From a virus: a stretch of DNA of 31,165 bases. The stretch lies in IMG/VR virus record IMGVR_UViG_3300008120_000191, positions 1 to 31,165 of that record; one strand, 5' to 3'. The notes beneath the pieces are model-generated. The model was not told the origin of the DNA and searched no databases. It saw only the letters and a program-made list of their open reading frames with translations. Shown in pieces: positions 20,107-24,936 of the stretch. The position numbers were made by a program, and so were the translations under genes. Each line of letters begins with the position of its first letter. Within the stretch, counting starts at the first letter, position 1.

Positions 20107-20486
20107 TCCAACTTAATACCATCGGACGAAATTATATACCAGTTGTTTTCAATTAAAACCATCTCAACACAAGCACCCTTACTTATATTAAGTTCATCAT
20201 AGTACTCATCTATCTTTCCGATAGATGGGGTTATGGTAACGTTTGTTAATACTTTAATAATAAGGTGGTCGGATTTAGAATTGTCTAAAACTAAATTACA
20301 ATGTTCGGCATTTTTGATTAAAATTAAATCTTCACCATTTGTTTTATACGAAGATTCGGTTACGACTTTTTTTAAAAACTCAGGCACTAACGGAATAAGT
20401 TTCTCAAAATATTCAATCTCTTTATGTTGTTTAATATTATAGGTTTTATCACCAATTTTTTTCCTAACCAATGTCGATTTTATCAT
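20103..20486 (-). CDS. Small hypothetical protein downstream of gp13-like gene, 127 residues
   Basis: No family is recognised. The N-terminal half is charged, with helix-like segments (EYFEKLIPLVPEFLKKVV). The C-terminal half is beta-type and ends CVEMVLIENNWYIISSDGIKLD-like, reminiscent of the short terminal strands of phage fibre or head-decoration domains, a weak likeness. Its start overlaps the gp13-like stop (ATGA), so translation is probably coupled and the protein may act in the same neck or head-completion step. The stop overlaps the polymerase stop on the other strand. Function unknown. Confidence 0.55.
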   Translation of the reverse strand: MIKSTLVRKKIGDKTYNIKQHKEIEYFEKLIPLVPEFLKKVVTESSYKTNGEDLILIKNAEHCNLVLDNSKSDHLIIKVLTNVTITPSIGKIDEYYDELNISKGACVEMVLIENNWYIISSDGIKLD

Positions 20487-21604
20487 ATTACATAAATTTG
20501 TCTTGGCATTGCGGTAAATTTCTTTTGTTTGTTTAAGTTTTCCGCAAGTAACGCCTCACGCTCCATTACTTTTTCAGGTCTTAATCTTGTTAATCTACCC
20601 TCAGCACCTGTTAATTCCTCAATTAATTTAGTTTTTTCGTCTTTTGACTCAGTCGCTAAAGATTGGTAATCCATTGTTAATTCAGAATCAGGAGTTTTTA
20701 AATTACCGCTATATTTTCCTCTTACCTTTGATAAGGTTTCTTTACAATATGCAATAAACCATCTTCTAACCCATTGTTGTGCTGGGTTATTAAGGTCTGC
20801 CCAACTAATCTTTTCAAACGGAACATCAGAAGGTAATCTAATAATATCAGGATTGTCCTTCAAACATTTATCTCTATCAGGACCATCAACCTCATAATAC
20901 CAATACCAAACCTTACCTCTCATTAATGTAGAATTTCCAAAATCAAATTTACCACCTGGTACATTCATAAGGTGAATTGCCTTCTTTCCTTCAGGAAGTG
21001 CGGTAACTCTATATGTTAATTCTCCCGCAATAATTCTTCTTTGTATATTAATCTCTTGCATTCTTAATAACATATCAAAGGCAGGCATCATAAAATATGA
21101 GCCCGAATAACCAAACTGAGAATAACCAGCGGGTCCTCCCAAACCAACACCACCTAATGCTCCAAATGTCCAAGGGTCAAATAATAAATTATTTAACTCA
21201 GCCGGAGTAAACCATAATAATTCATTTAATTCTCTACCGGCAGGAATTTCGTACATTTGTTGTCCTTTAACTAATTGTATGTAATCTTTTTTAAGAACAG
21301 AATCTCCTCCCGCTTGCAATCCAACAATTTTCGAATACGCGTAAGTATATCTTTGTTCGTAATCTAAACTTTTTGTGGTAAATGCTTTAGATAAAGATTG
21401 AGTATCTAAATTTAAATTATAAAGTGATGTCCATTGAGATTCAATTAACCAATCTTGGACATATTGCGAATAATCGTCTATTGAGAATTCTAATAGAGTG
21501 TCCATTTGTTCATCCTCTAATTCAATAGACCTTAAAGGAGCACCTAATAAGTGTCTAACTTTACGATATAAATCGCTTCTTTCTGGTTCTGCAATGATTG
21601 ACAT
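20483..21604 (-). CDS. Neck protein, T4 gp13-like
   Basis: The 373-residue protein has the arrangement expected of T4 gp13, which closes the filled head and receives the tail. An N-terminal helical block (LYRKVRHLLGAPLRSIELED, then FSIDDYSQYVQDWLIES) leads to a Gly/Phe/Tyr-rich middle (WTFGALGGVGLGG to SGSYFMMPAFDML, about residues 145-178). A helical segment with QQWVRRWFIAYCKETLSKVR follows, then a charged helical tail rich in Glu and Leu. It is somewhat longer than T4 gp13 (about 309). It sits on the minus strand, away from the gp14- and gp15-like genes. Identification is by layout read from memory, not by search. Confidence 0.65.
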   Translation of the reverse strand: MSIIAEPERSDLYRKVRHLLGAPLRSIELEDEQMDTLLEFSIDDYSQYVQDWLIESQWTSLYNLNLDTQSLSKAFTTKSLDYEQRYTYAYSKIVGLQAGGDSVLKKDYIQLVKGQQMYEIPAGRELNELLWFTPAELNNLLFDPWTFGALGGVGLGGPAGYSQFGYSGSYFMMPAFDMLLRMQEINIQRRIIAGELTYRVTALPEGKKAIHLMNVPGGKFDFGNSTLMRGKVWYWYYEVDGPDRDKCLKDNPDIIRLPSDVPFEKISWADLNNPAQQWVRRWFIAYCKETLSKVRGKYSGNLKTPDSELTMDYQSLATESKDEKTKLIEELTGAEGRLTRLRPEKVMEREALLAENLNKQKKFTAMPRQIYVI

Positions 21605-21628: not shown

Positions 21629-23149
21629 TCAATCTATCTTAAAAACTAAATCACTCTTATTTAAGACAAAATTTCCTTCAACAATTTCGGTATTTGAATT
21701 ATCAAACACATATATTTTTTTTCTATTTGTGAATATTAACCAATCTGTTTCATATTCCTTAACTCCACCAGTTTCGATAAAATTAACTTTATCCCCGTCA
21801 AGTTTAATATCTTTAAAAGGTTTAACTTGAGCGGTCTTTTTACTTCCATTATAAATAATTTCACAATCAACTCCTTGTAATGTATCACTAAGATTACCAA
21901 TACTAGCAATCTTTTTAACATTATCGTTACCAAGTCTTTCTTTTAATTTTTTAACAACATAGTCTTCGTTAGTATCACCAAAACCACCTGTCTTTTTAAC
22001 GGTATCCATTAACGATTTAAATGTTGATGATTCGGGATTAAAGATTCTATTTTTAAAATAAGTTATTGCGTTTAATAATCTTGTAAGTTGTTCATCATTG
22101 TTTTCAACATTAAAGGTTATTGGTCTTTTCTTCATTGTGAAAAGAACTTTATTTATGTCGTTAACTAAGATACAAAAACAGGTATAATTTGTATTAACTC
22201 TATTAAATATTGAACGACCGGGTTCTCCCATAAAATCGTATAAACCTCTTAATGTCCCTGGAGCATATTCATTTCTTTTATAATAGTTGTCAGGAAACAC
22301 CTCAGACAAAGTTTTCTCAATCCATTCGTTAAAATCTTTCTTAATATTTGGGTACTTGTTAAATAACTCTCTATAAAAAGAGTTTTCTCTTGTACTACAT
22401 TTTTCATCCACCGATTCCGACAAAATAATTCTTCTAAAATAATTTTCGTTTAATGTTGTTTTGGTTTTCATTTCATACATTTTGTTAACAAATTCCCAAT
22501 TAACAAAATCCCAAAAACCTTTTATATATTCATCCCTTTTATTTTGGTATTTTAAATAATAAGCATGTTCCCATAAATCTAAACCTAGTAAAGGATAACC
22601 ACCTCTTTTAATAACATTCATTAGTGGGTTGTCTTGATTAGGAGTTGACATAATTTTTAATCTTCCCTTTTTGGTTAAAACAAGCCACACCCATCCTGAA
22701 CCAAATCTTTTTTGTGCAACATCTTCAAACCTTGTTTTAAAGTTTTTAAACGATTCAAAATGTTTATTTATTTTATCAAGTAGTTTATCGGAAGGGTTTT
22801 GTTTTTTTGGGGATAACATCTTCCAAAATAAAGCGTGGTTAAAAGCTCCTCCCGCATTATTTCTAATAACTTTTGGAAATCTACTTATTGATTTTACAAT
22901 TTGTTCAAGTTCTAAATCACCATAGTCTTTTTTGGATAAAGCGTCATTCAATTTCTTAACATATCCTTTATAATGTTTGTTATAATGAATATCCATTGTT
23001 TCAGAATCAATGAATTGTTTTAAAGAAGAATAAGAATAAGGTAATTTTTCAATACCGATTTTTTTCATTTCGGTTAATAAGAAATTCTTACTTTCTGACT
23101 TTTGAATTTGTTCTAATAAAACTGATGTCTTTTCTAATATACTTTTCAC
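21629..23149 (-). CDS. Mn-type superoxide dismutase fused to a PD-(D/E)XK-like nuclease domain
   Basis: This 506-residue protein starts with GTG. Residues about 36-228 are a full Fe/Mn superoxide dismutase. The four metal ligands are H55 (DIHYNKHY), H105 (GAFNHALFW), D191 and H195 (LDLWEHAYY). G101 and Q172 (STPNQDNPLM) match the manganese rather than the iron type. It should convert superoxide to peroxide and oxygen. Residues about 235-385 are unassigned. Residues about 386-506 fit a PD-(D/E)XK nuclease core: E395 in a helix, D428 (GVDCEI) and Q441-x-K443 (TAQVK). Normal SODs are about 200 residues, so the extra 280 are remarkable. Leu-x-Glu sites in its leader (NFLLTE) suggest prohead processing. 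The SOD assignment is firm, the nuclease likely. Confidence 0.85.
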   Translation of the reverse strand: MKSILEKTSVLLEQIQKSESKNFLLTEMKKIGIEKLPYSYSSLKQFIDSETMDIHYNKHYKGYVKKLNDALSKKDYGDLELEQIVKSISRFPKVIRNNAGGAFNHALFWKMLSPKKQNPSDKLLDKINKHFESFKNFKTRFEDVAQKRFGSGWVWLVLTKKGRLKIMSTPNQDNPLMNVIKRGGYPLLGLDLWEHAYYLKYQNKRDEYIKGFWDFVNWEFVNKMYEMKTKTTLNENYFRRIILSESVDEKCSTRENSFYRELFNKYPNIKKDFNEWIEKTLSEVFPDNYYKRNEYAPGTLRGLYDFMGEPGRSIFNRVNTNYTCFCILVNDINKVLFTMKKRPITFNVENNDEQLTRLLNAITYFKNRIFNPESSTFKSLMDTVKKTGGFGDTNEDYVVKKLKERLGNDNVKKIASIGNLSDTLQGVDCEIIYNGSKKTAQVKPFKDIKLDGDKVNFIETGGVKEYETDWLIFTNRKKIYVFDNSNTEIVEGNFVLNKSDLVFKID

Positions 23150-23164
23150 AAATATTTATTTTAT

Positions 23165-23172
23165 AATAAATA
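23165..23172 (-). promoter_or_regulatory. TATTTATT element upstream of the SOD-nuclease gene
   Basis: A minus-strand TATTTATT copy (AATATTTATT in context) sits in the 23-base gap between the helicase stop and the GTG start, ending 15 bases before the start. It matches the elements before neighbouring genes. Confidence 0.35.
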
Positions 23173-24936
23173 TTATGTTATTGAATTAATTTTATTCATA
23201 ATCTGTTCTACGATATCACCTTTATCTAAATTGTCACCCATTACAGTTTCAATTACAGATTTCTTTGAGTTTACAATATCATATATTGACCCCTCAATAG
23301 TATTTTCAAATATTGGGTAATAAACAAGGACATTATTTTTTTGACCATATCTATACGCTCTATCTTCGGCTTGAGATAAATCACCAGGAACAAATGATAG
23401 GTCATTAATGATTACCGATTCCGCCGCGGTTAATGTTAACCCAACTCCTGCCGCCTTAACGTTACCAACAAATACTTTTATTTTATCGTTTTCTTGGAAT
23501 TGGTCAACCGCATATTGTCTTTGTGGTTTAGAAGAACTTCCGTCTAATCTTACCGCTTGTTTACCAAAGTGGTCGGCAATACGATTTAAAGTATCTGTAA
23601 AGTTTGTGAATATGATAACTTTCTTTTCTTGGTCAATTATGTTTTGAGCAAGTTCAATAGTATGTTCTATTTTTTCTTCAGCAATTACTTGTCTTACTTT
23701 CATAAGTTTTGTAAACTGAATTGTTAGCGATTTTGATTCCTCACCCTTTGTTCTATACCAATCAAAGTATTCTCCCATTAACCCTTCATATAATTTAGAC
23801 CTCAACCTTAAATAAACGGGGGTAATAATCTTTTCAGGTAAATCCAATACTTCCGTTTTCAATCTTCTTAATACTTGTTTTGAAGTTCTATCTCTTAGTT
23901 CTTCTAAGTTAGACGCTCCTGATACATTCCAAATCTTTCTGTTACCGGCTTTAAATTGATACCCTTGACAATATCTGATAGCGTAAGCCATCCAATTCTG
24001 AGCAACAGGACTTTCAATTAGTTGAAGTAAATTGAAATAATTCATTGGTCTGTTTGTCATTGGTGTTCCTGTTAATAACCAAAGAGTATCGGCTTTTTTA
24101 GAAAAATGATTTACGAGTTTTGTTCTTTGAGCTTGGCCATTTTGAATGTAATGAGCCTCATCAATTATAATAAGTTCAGGTTTAAACTTACCAATAAATG
24201 AATTATCTTTATCTTTTAAATCATAAAAGTTTTTAAGGATATCGTAATTAGTAATTACAAAATCGTGTTCTAATGAAAAGTTTTTACCCTCACAAATAAA
24301 AATACTTCTGTCCGTATAGTTTCTAATCTCCCTTTCCCAATTAATCTTTAAAGATGCGGGACAGATAATTAAGACTTTTTTAGCATTTGTTTCTAAAGCG
24401 GCGATAGTCGCTGAGGTAGTTTTACCAACACCCATATCATCCGCCAATATAAATCTTTTAGAACCAACCAATTTTTCTATCGCCTCTTTTTGATGATTTA
24501 AGGGTGGTCTATGAGAATATTTAAAGTAGTCAATTTCGACCACTTTAGTTGTGTGAGTTTTTAGTAAGGCTCCTTTGGGTAACCAAAAATCGTGTATTGT
24601 TTCACCCGAAAAAACTTTACCCCAAATATGATAGGATTTTTCTTTTTCTGATAATAACTTCTCAACCCAAACTTCAGTTGGTATTTCAGTATATAATTTC
24701 TCATCGGCAATTTTCTTTGCGAAGTATGGGTCTAAATCGACCCACTTCTTAGCAACCCTTGGTGTTTTGTTGTGATTGTTAATTATATATTCTGATTGTG
24801 AACGAGTGGGATAAAACTTTTTGTTAGTATCTTTTTGGTGTTTTAATTTTAATATAAAATTATTTGCACCATCATATGAATCCAATAAAGATAATGCGGT
24901 GTGTTCGATAAGATTATTTGTCAGACCTGAAGTCAC
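23173..24936 (-). CDS. SNF2-family helicase/translocase, SMARCAL1-like
   Basis: This 587-residue protein starts with GTG. It has a full superfamily 2 motor of SNF2 type: motif I ADDMGVGKT (K172), motif Ia ICPASLKINW, motif II DEAH (259-262), motif III LTGTP (288-292), motif V around NVKAAGVGLTLT (492-503) and motif VI QAEDRAYRYGQ (522-532). Compact SNF2 proteins of the SMARCAL1 kind anneal DNA and remodel stalled forks, and a role in phage recombination, replication or repair follows by inference. The first 140 residues are not assigned. T4's comparable enzyme, UvsW, belongs to a different helicase branch, so this may substitute for it. It diverges from the gp14-like gene and shares a palindromic element with it. 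Confidence 0.85.
   Translation of the reverse strand: MTSGLTNNLIEHTALSLLDSYDGANNFILKLKHQKDTNKKFYPTRSQSEYIINNHNKTPRVAKKWVDLDPYFAKKIADEKLYTEIPTEVWVEKLLSEKEKSYHIWGKVFSGETIHDFWLPKGALLKTHTTKVVEIDYFKYSHRPPLNHQKEAIEKLVGSKRFILADDMGVGKTTSATIAALETNAKKVLIICPASLKINWEREIRNYTDRSIFICEGKNFSLEHDFVITNYDILKNFYDLKDKDNSFIGKFKPELIIIDEAHYIQNGQAQRTKLVNHFSKKADTLWLLTGTPMTNRPMNYFNLLQLIESPVAQNWMAYAIRYCQGYQFKAGNRKIWNVSGASNLEELRDRTSKQVLRRLKTEVLDLPEKIITPVYLRLRSKLYEGLMGEYFDWYRTKGEESKSLTIQFTKLMKVRQVIAEEKIEHTIELAQNIIDQEKKVIIFTNFTDTLNRIADHFGKQAVRLDGSSSKPQRQYAVDQFQENDKIKVFVGNVKAAGVGLTLTAAESVIINDLSFVPGDLSQAEDRAYRYGQKNNVLVYYPIFENTIEGSIYDIVNSKKSVIETVMGDNLDKGDIVEQIMNKINSIT

Follow-up and report, generated by a model that had tools for sequence, protein, structure and literature searches.

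A phage fusion of superoxide dismutase and a PD-(D/E)XK-fold domain: a proposed head-packaged cargo precursor with prohead-protease-type sites

The described systems closest to the protein considered here are proteins that phages carry in their heads or are thought to inject. The prohead protease of T4, gp21, cleaves after L/I-X-E, the internal proteins of the T4 head carry capsid-targeting propeptides of 10–19 residues, and foreign proteins joined to the T4 capsid-targeting signal get packaged and delivered (PMC9026906). The head (ejection) proteins of SPN3US and phiKZ likewise have N-terminal propeptides, some of them 20–24 residues long, which are removed by a gp21-like prohead protease, as described in an excerpt of the account of these phages (PMC10052503). 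Polyvalent proteins, in turn, join unrelated enzymatic domains in one chain and are predicted to be injected (PMC5512222).

The gene described here lies in a window of 31,165 nucleotides (the whole stretch of DNA that was analysed), a 31-kb fragment from a virus record; the identical gene and its neighbours are also found within a 203-kb contig. The open reading frame is real: it occupies the positions given in the original prediction, 21629..23149, and lies on the minus strand, with a GTG start at 23149 and a stop at 21629-21631, and encodes 506 amino acids. The downstream neighbour (20483..21604, minus strand), which adjoins the gene in nearly all loci and has TATTTATA upstream, is neck/tail-completion-like, and the conserved upstream neighbour (23173..24936, minus strand) is an SNF2/UvsW-like helicase, both labels being readings of the sequence. 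The conserved order runs from the sheath gene through two small genes, the SNF2-like helicase, the SOD-nuclease gene, the neck-like gene and another small gene to DNA polymerase. Relatives were found in at least 597 stretches of viral contigs, of which 80 were kept, nearly all spanning the whole protein; the conservation counts given below rest on 61 distinct fusion sequences. The contigs that carry the fusion come from environmental metagenomes and belong to a large, uncultured group of T4-like viruses of water. Flanked by the same neighbours, the fusion turns up in dozens of independent contigs, so it is no assembly artefact.

The two domains of the fusion

The only significant Pfam matches in the 506-residue protein are Sod_Fe_N over residues 34-113 (9e-22) and Sod_Fe_C over residues 119-223 (3e-40), and the nearest solved structures in the PDB are Mn enzymes (Deinococcus, E about 1e-61). 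The four metal ligands named in the original prediction, H55, H105, D191 and H195, together with the Mn-type pair Gly101 and Gln172, stand at the positions given there and are identical in 61/61 distinct homologs, which share 52-100% identity. Judged by its sequence, the segment of residues 34-223 (22481..23050, minus strand) is a complete Mn-type superoxide dismutase (SOD), and dismutase activity is predicted. A whole-protein search of genome contigs matched SODs only; the cellular SODs closest to it are mostly from Bacteroidota (41-53% identity), and a Bacteroidota host for this phage group is plausible. No nuclease follows the SOD in the 46 bacterial proteins that were measured; their chains stop 11-37 residues past the WEHAY motif. 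One phage-like SOD sequence with a short N-terminal extension was found in a Fluviicola metagenome bin (L285:2920-3645), possibly on a misbinned phage contig. Several matches to SODs labelled as phage were set aside since they resemble host DNA in phage records, judging by their host names and missing annotation.

The C-terminal part of the protein consists, in an AlphaFold2 model built from 44 sequences (mean pLDDT 87.6), of a helical region at residues 246-386 (21992..22414, minus strand) and a compact domain at residues 387-506 (21632..21991, minus strand). A full-length model (mean pLDDT 75, poor at residues 1-57) was left out of the fold searches. Comparison with solved structures returned mainly PD-(D/E)XK nucleases over model residues ~142-261 (protein residues ~387-506). 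The top match was the Holliday-junction resolvase Hjc (Z 8.8, rmsd 3.4, 102 residues), and the other leading matches were NhoI, I-Ssp6803I, HhaI, DpnI, PvuII, RecU and EcoRV. Foldseek by itself gave weaker results, with a best E of 0.005 (I-Ssp6803I) followed by Hjc. A Z-score near 8 could on its own reflect perhaps only a common structural arrangement, and sequence-profile searches of the domain against Pfam, PHROGs and the PDB returned weak or chance matches only. The RE_MjaI profile matched weakly in 4/44 relatives (best E 0.0019) and gave no match for the domain in the window; a nuclease-profile search of the genome contigs produced no matches.

What gives the assignment its weight is the consistent list of structural matches taken together with the candidate catalytic residues and their spacing. 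Neither the 61 distinct fusions nor the 100 intact copies of the domain, a set that includes SOD-linked, head-cluster, zinc-ribbon-linked and huge-phage copies, show any change at E395, D428, Q441 or K443, and these residues stay constant across domain families that share 22-45% identity. Their invariance in diverged copies that have no SOD argues that the motif did not arise by chance; S313, N316, T320 and F370 are likewise invariant in these SOD-less paralogs. The spacing from D to QxK is the same as in Sulfolobus Hjc. Gln441 stands where (D/E)xK has its acidic residue, which leaves the catalytic set canonical only in part; in Mrr, too, a Gln is found at this place. The case that the C-terminal domain belongs to the PD-(D/E)XK nuclease superfamily is thus strong, and DNA cleavage is predicted. 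The nuclease-like nature of this domain had been proposed from the letters of the sequence alone, and it stood up both to structure prediction with fold searching, which returned nucleases and not another fold, and to the survey of homologues, in which all four putative catalytic residues were kept. A standalone nuclease domain with the same E...D...QxK arrangement is also encoded by a 735-kb phage (L086; LR756501).

Protease-type sites, head genes and a modular slot

The original prediction mentioned neither a tag at the N-terminus nor cleavage-type sites nor a modular slot, and these turned out to be the most informative part of the locus. Residues 1-27 (23069..23149, minus strand) form an extension ahead of the SOD core, which begins at residue 34, and the Pfam and PDB alignments to SODs start only downstream of it. 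We propose that this extension is a capsid-targeting propeptide; the tag can also be read as a possible coiled coil. It ends in an (L/I)xE site, LTE27|M28 (23066..23077, minus strand), that is present in 61/61 homologs and is followed by M or A. Two more such sites, LNE235|N and LSE245|S, lie in the linker between the domains (22412..22453, minus strand). The first has the form (L/I)xE in 57 of the 61 homologs, with the E itself in all of them, and in the window protein it precedes N rather than the usual S; the second is found in 60/61, with G, S or Q as the next residue. Apart from these sites, the extension and linker are variable, with a mean column conservation of 0.60-0.61 vs 0.85 in the SOD. 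Only one further (L/I)xE is kept in all 61 homologs, and it is located within the SOD core.

The motif is a short one and occurs in 15% of random 10-residue windows taken from these proteins. For a survey of the slot, 80 loci were gathered with the neck-like gene as bait, which avoids a bias toward fusions. Among the distinct SOD-bearing proteins of this neck-anchored set, (L/I)xE stands at the start of the SOD in 47/48 (background 10%) and within 30 residues after it in 48/48 (background 41%). Of the nuclease-only proteins as a whole, 6/15 have a site no more than 25 residues ahead of the profile match, a count that is low partly because the starts of the profile matches differ. Exceptions do occur: one nuclease-only protein (L194) has no clear site, and one protein (L072) lacks the site at 245.

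The slot itself is filled in different ways. Fifty of the 80 neck-anchored loci carry the fusion, 21 have an SOD without a fused nuclease, eight have a nuclease without an SOD, and one offers too little sequence. Its forms include an SOD alone (about 260 aa), an SOD with a diverged nuclease, a longer chain of SOD, nuclease and a further domain (about 885-940 aa) and another of HEWxH domain, SOD and a further domain (about 700 aa), and sites of the (L/I)xE type are usual at the domain junctions. In several nuclease-only proteins (L196, L206 and L226) the (L/I)xE tag directly abuts the LSE|S of the nuclease start, and by their sequences they look as if the segment between the two sites had been removed. 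A second nuclease family, with a zinc-ribbon/L5_gp82-like N-terminus and the same nuclease fold, is encoded at a distance of a few kb from that for the SOD-nuclease; in 12/12 cases it bears (L/I)xE sites both N-terminally and between the domains.

Other arrangements were seen along the way. The proteins of ~700 aa that combine a zincin-like HEWxH domain, an SOD and a third domain (L159:3843-5978, L182, L186, L228 and others) show in this third domain an FDFEG...SPFDV...DKxSCK pattern with no Pfam match, and going by that pattern it may be another nuclease-like core. The zinc-ribbon family is represented by L014:4118-5629 on the minus strand and 11 similar loci, where a zinc ribbon and Phage_L5_gp82 (PF25735, 3e-29) are fused to the PD-(D/E)XK domain. 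At L192:4345-5981 the SOD and the nuclease lie in two overlapping frames, either a natural split or a frameshift, and at L222:3493-5987 the SOD-nuclease is replaced by two tandem nuclease-domain proteins, which both bear a different tag, MGKFII(T/E)ES....

The genome around the locus also holds the protease that such sites would call for. A Peptidase_S77 gp21 is encoded on the 203-kb contig in which the locus lies, and the gp23 capsid protein of this contig has near the N-terminus the sequence LINE|A, identical in 4/4 contigs, which would be the maturation site of the capsid protein. Both gp21 and gp23 were detected in 4/8 long contigs; the remaining contigs may be fragments. On the 203-kb contig, gp21 and a gp22-like scaffold gene flank a SOD-less nuclease paralog that starts with MKYFLSE|, and another SOD-less paralog lies near gp21 in a 322-kb contig.

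An upstream motif is shared with head and tail genes. Of 212 genes on the 203-kb contig, 39 have TATTTATA in the 60 nt before them, where 2.4 would be expected, and the genes it precedes include those for gp21, gp22, terminase, neck and tail-fibre, several of these labels being readings of the sequences. The fused gene has a variant of the motif, TATTTATT, at 23165..23172 on the minus strand, 23 nt upstream of its start, and the core TATTTAT is present upstream of it in 34/34 representatives. This TATTTATA-type motif suggests that the SOD-nuclease gene may be expressed late, with the head genes. On the opposite strand the motif reads as TATAAATA, the core of the T4 late promoter; the T4 form was itself considered as the late motif and rejected, as TATTTATA is the more enriched in sense orientation. 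Structural and head genes on the contigs G001 (L101-L112) and G003 show a strong enrichment of TATTTATA at 10-30 nt upstream.

The N-terminal tag may extend well past this one gene. In the 322-kb relative (G003, L113-L130), (L/I/V)(T/S/N)E occurs within residues 4-13 of 48/377 predicted proteins vs 11.4 expected, and about 30 predicted proteins start with a MKIIITE(S/N)-like sequence, possibly a genome-wide capsid tag if one goes by these starts. The corresponding count on the 203-kb contig is 12 vs 8.6 expected, and an N-terminal (L/I)xE goes together with the late-type motif on the 322-kb contig (p = 0.002) but not clearly on the 203-kb contig (p = 0.10). These results are to be taken as leads, since the gene calls were simple ORF calls. 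They invite a broader and quite tentative proposal, which we hold with rather less than even confidence: the head-maturation protease might serve as a general cargo-release system, in which a tag with (L/I)(T/S/N)E marks dozens of late proteins and the modular locus builds cleavable precursors (of SOD, PD-(D/E)XK nucleases, the HEWxH zincin-like domain and others) that would be cut in the head and co-injected.

Proposed delivery and comparison with known systems

The conserved head-protease-type sites between the parts of the protein suggest that both enzymes are packed in the head and delivered to the next cell, and our favoured reading, which we consider probable by a modest measure, is that the SOD-nuclease is a head-packaged, prohead-protease-processed cargo precursor that delivers an MnSOD and a nuclease at infection. 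The precursor would be made late, and the tag of residues 1-27 would direct it into the prohead core of a T4-like phage. The gp21-type protease would then remove the tag by cutting after LTE27, and further cuts behind E235 and E245 of the linker would set the mature MnSOD (about 28-235) apart from the nuclease (about 246-506). Both would be packed together with the DNA and reach the next cell when it is infected, where the SOD would remove superoxide, unless it acts earlier by protecting the virion DNA, and the nuclease would attack non-self DNA, with the host chromosome or competing mobile DNA as its target. Several features weaken this cargo reading: the shortness of the (L/I)xE motif, the N after LNE235, the proteins that lack a site, the possible coiled coil in the tag, and the finding of gp21 and gp23 in only 4/8 long contigs. 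An active nuclease beside the phage genome moreover requires a mechanism of inhibition or protection, and none was seen here, and there are DNA-metabolism genes among the neighbours. We know of no virion proteomics for this phage group.

The same neighbours, an SNF2-like helicase and a DNA polymerase, lend themselves to a different and rather unlikely explanation, in which the protein is a bifunctional enzyme of the cytosol. Its SOD would be an auxiliary metabolic gene product that relieves oxidative stress during phage production, as the standalone SODs carried by other phages might suggest, and its nuclease would take part in phage DNA metabolism, by resolving Holliday junctions or breaking down host DNA, in line with Hjc (Z 8.8) being the top structural match; the linker motifs would be incidental. 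The fold match to Hjc is, however, generic to the superfamily, and a cytosolic enzyme leaves unexplained the (L/I)xE sites at the domain boundaries, the paralog in the head gene cluster, the tag in nuclease-only forms and the late-type motif. The hazard of packaging an active nuclease can also be met by supposing that the protein is indeed packaged in the head and that the nuclease-fold domain does not cut DNA at all, being a structural or DNA-binding partner of the core or scaffold, with the SOD shielding the packaged DNA from oxidants during a sunlit extracellular life. The paralog between gp21 and gp22 and the environmental origin of the contigs agree with such a role, but four catalytic-type residues that stay invariant at 22-45% identity would be unusual for a dead enzyme, and we regard it as improbable. 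The joining of both domains in one chain could finally hint at a defence or counter-defence effector in which the SOD, by sensing or consuming superoxide, governs the nuclease joined to it; this is very improbable, as the SOD active site is complete, the two domains are found separately in the same slot, and protease-type sites lie between them.

Returning to the meanings that had been offered for the fusion at the outset, a capsid-linked role or an early effector gains support, being in keeping with the protease-type sites, with the motif of late type and with the paralog in the head cluster. There is none for a nuclease that makes use of the manganese or for a sensor of superoxide, because the two domains occur apart in the same slot and the linker sites would separate them. 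If the cargo reading is true, widespread uncultured T4-like phages deliver an antioxidant enzyme and a nuclease as one protease-cleavable package, which would connect the first minutes of infection with oxidative stress and widen the known repertoire of head cargo. The tag-plus-site sequence rule would then predict which unknown phage genes encode injected proteins.

Taken part by part, the protein has familiar relatives. It shares with Mn/Fe superoxide dismutases both Pfam domains, the metal ligands and the Mn-type Gly/Gln pair, but here the enzyme is preceded by a tag and followed by a nuclease. With the Hjc/Mrr-type PD-(D/E)XK nucleases it shares the fold and the E...D...xK order, and it differs from them in the Q for the acidic residue, the long helical region in front and the want of a significant sequence-profile match. 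A 501-aa entry in BFVD, A0A6J5L953, named only as "superoxide dismutase [uncultured Caudovirales phage]", has a model that matches the C-terminal domain (TMq 0.89) at about 30% identity over the domain; it is evidently the same SOD-nuclease fusion, already in the databases under the SOD name alone. No report of such a fusion, nor of prohead-protease-type linkers within an enzyme fusion, was found in the open-licence papers that were searched.

The likeness to head and injected proteins concerns the way the parts are put together. The short N-terminal propeptide is of the type seen in the head proteins of SPN3US and phiKZ, for which neither SOD nor nuclease cargo is reported in the excerpt mentioned above (PMC10052503). 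The polyvalent proteins also bring unrelated enzymatic domains together in one chain, and many of them contain the HEWxH zincin-like domain that some relatives have here; delivery would be common to both, but the separation of the domains would here be the work of the prohead protease at conserved sites, and the word "superoxide" is absent from the survey of polyvalent proteins (PMC5512222). The T4 internal head proteins (IPI-III and Alt) have in common with this protein a short N-terminal propeptide that ends in (L/I)xE, a gp21-type protease and gp23, which are both encoded on the 203-kb contig, and the late-type motif; what differs is the content, an MnSOD and a nuclease-fold domain with extra sites between them, whose packaging is predicted from these features. 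The SOD-nuclease is best read as a cargo protein of the internal-head-protein or polyvalent kind, with the MnSOD, the nuclease and the prohead-protease-type linkers as its new elements.
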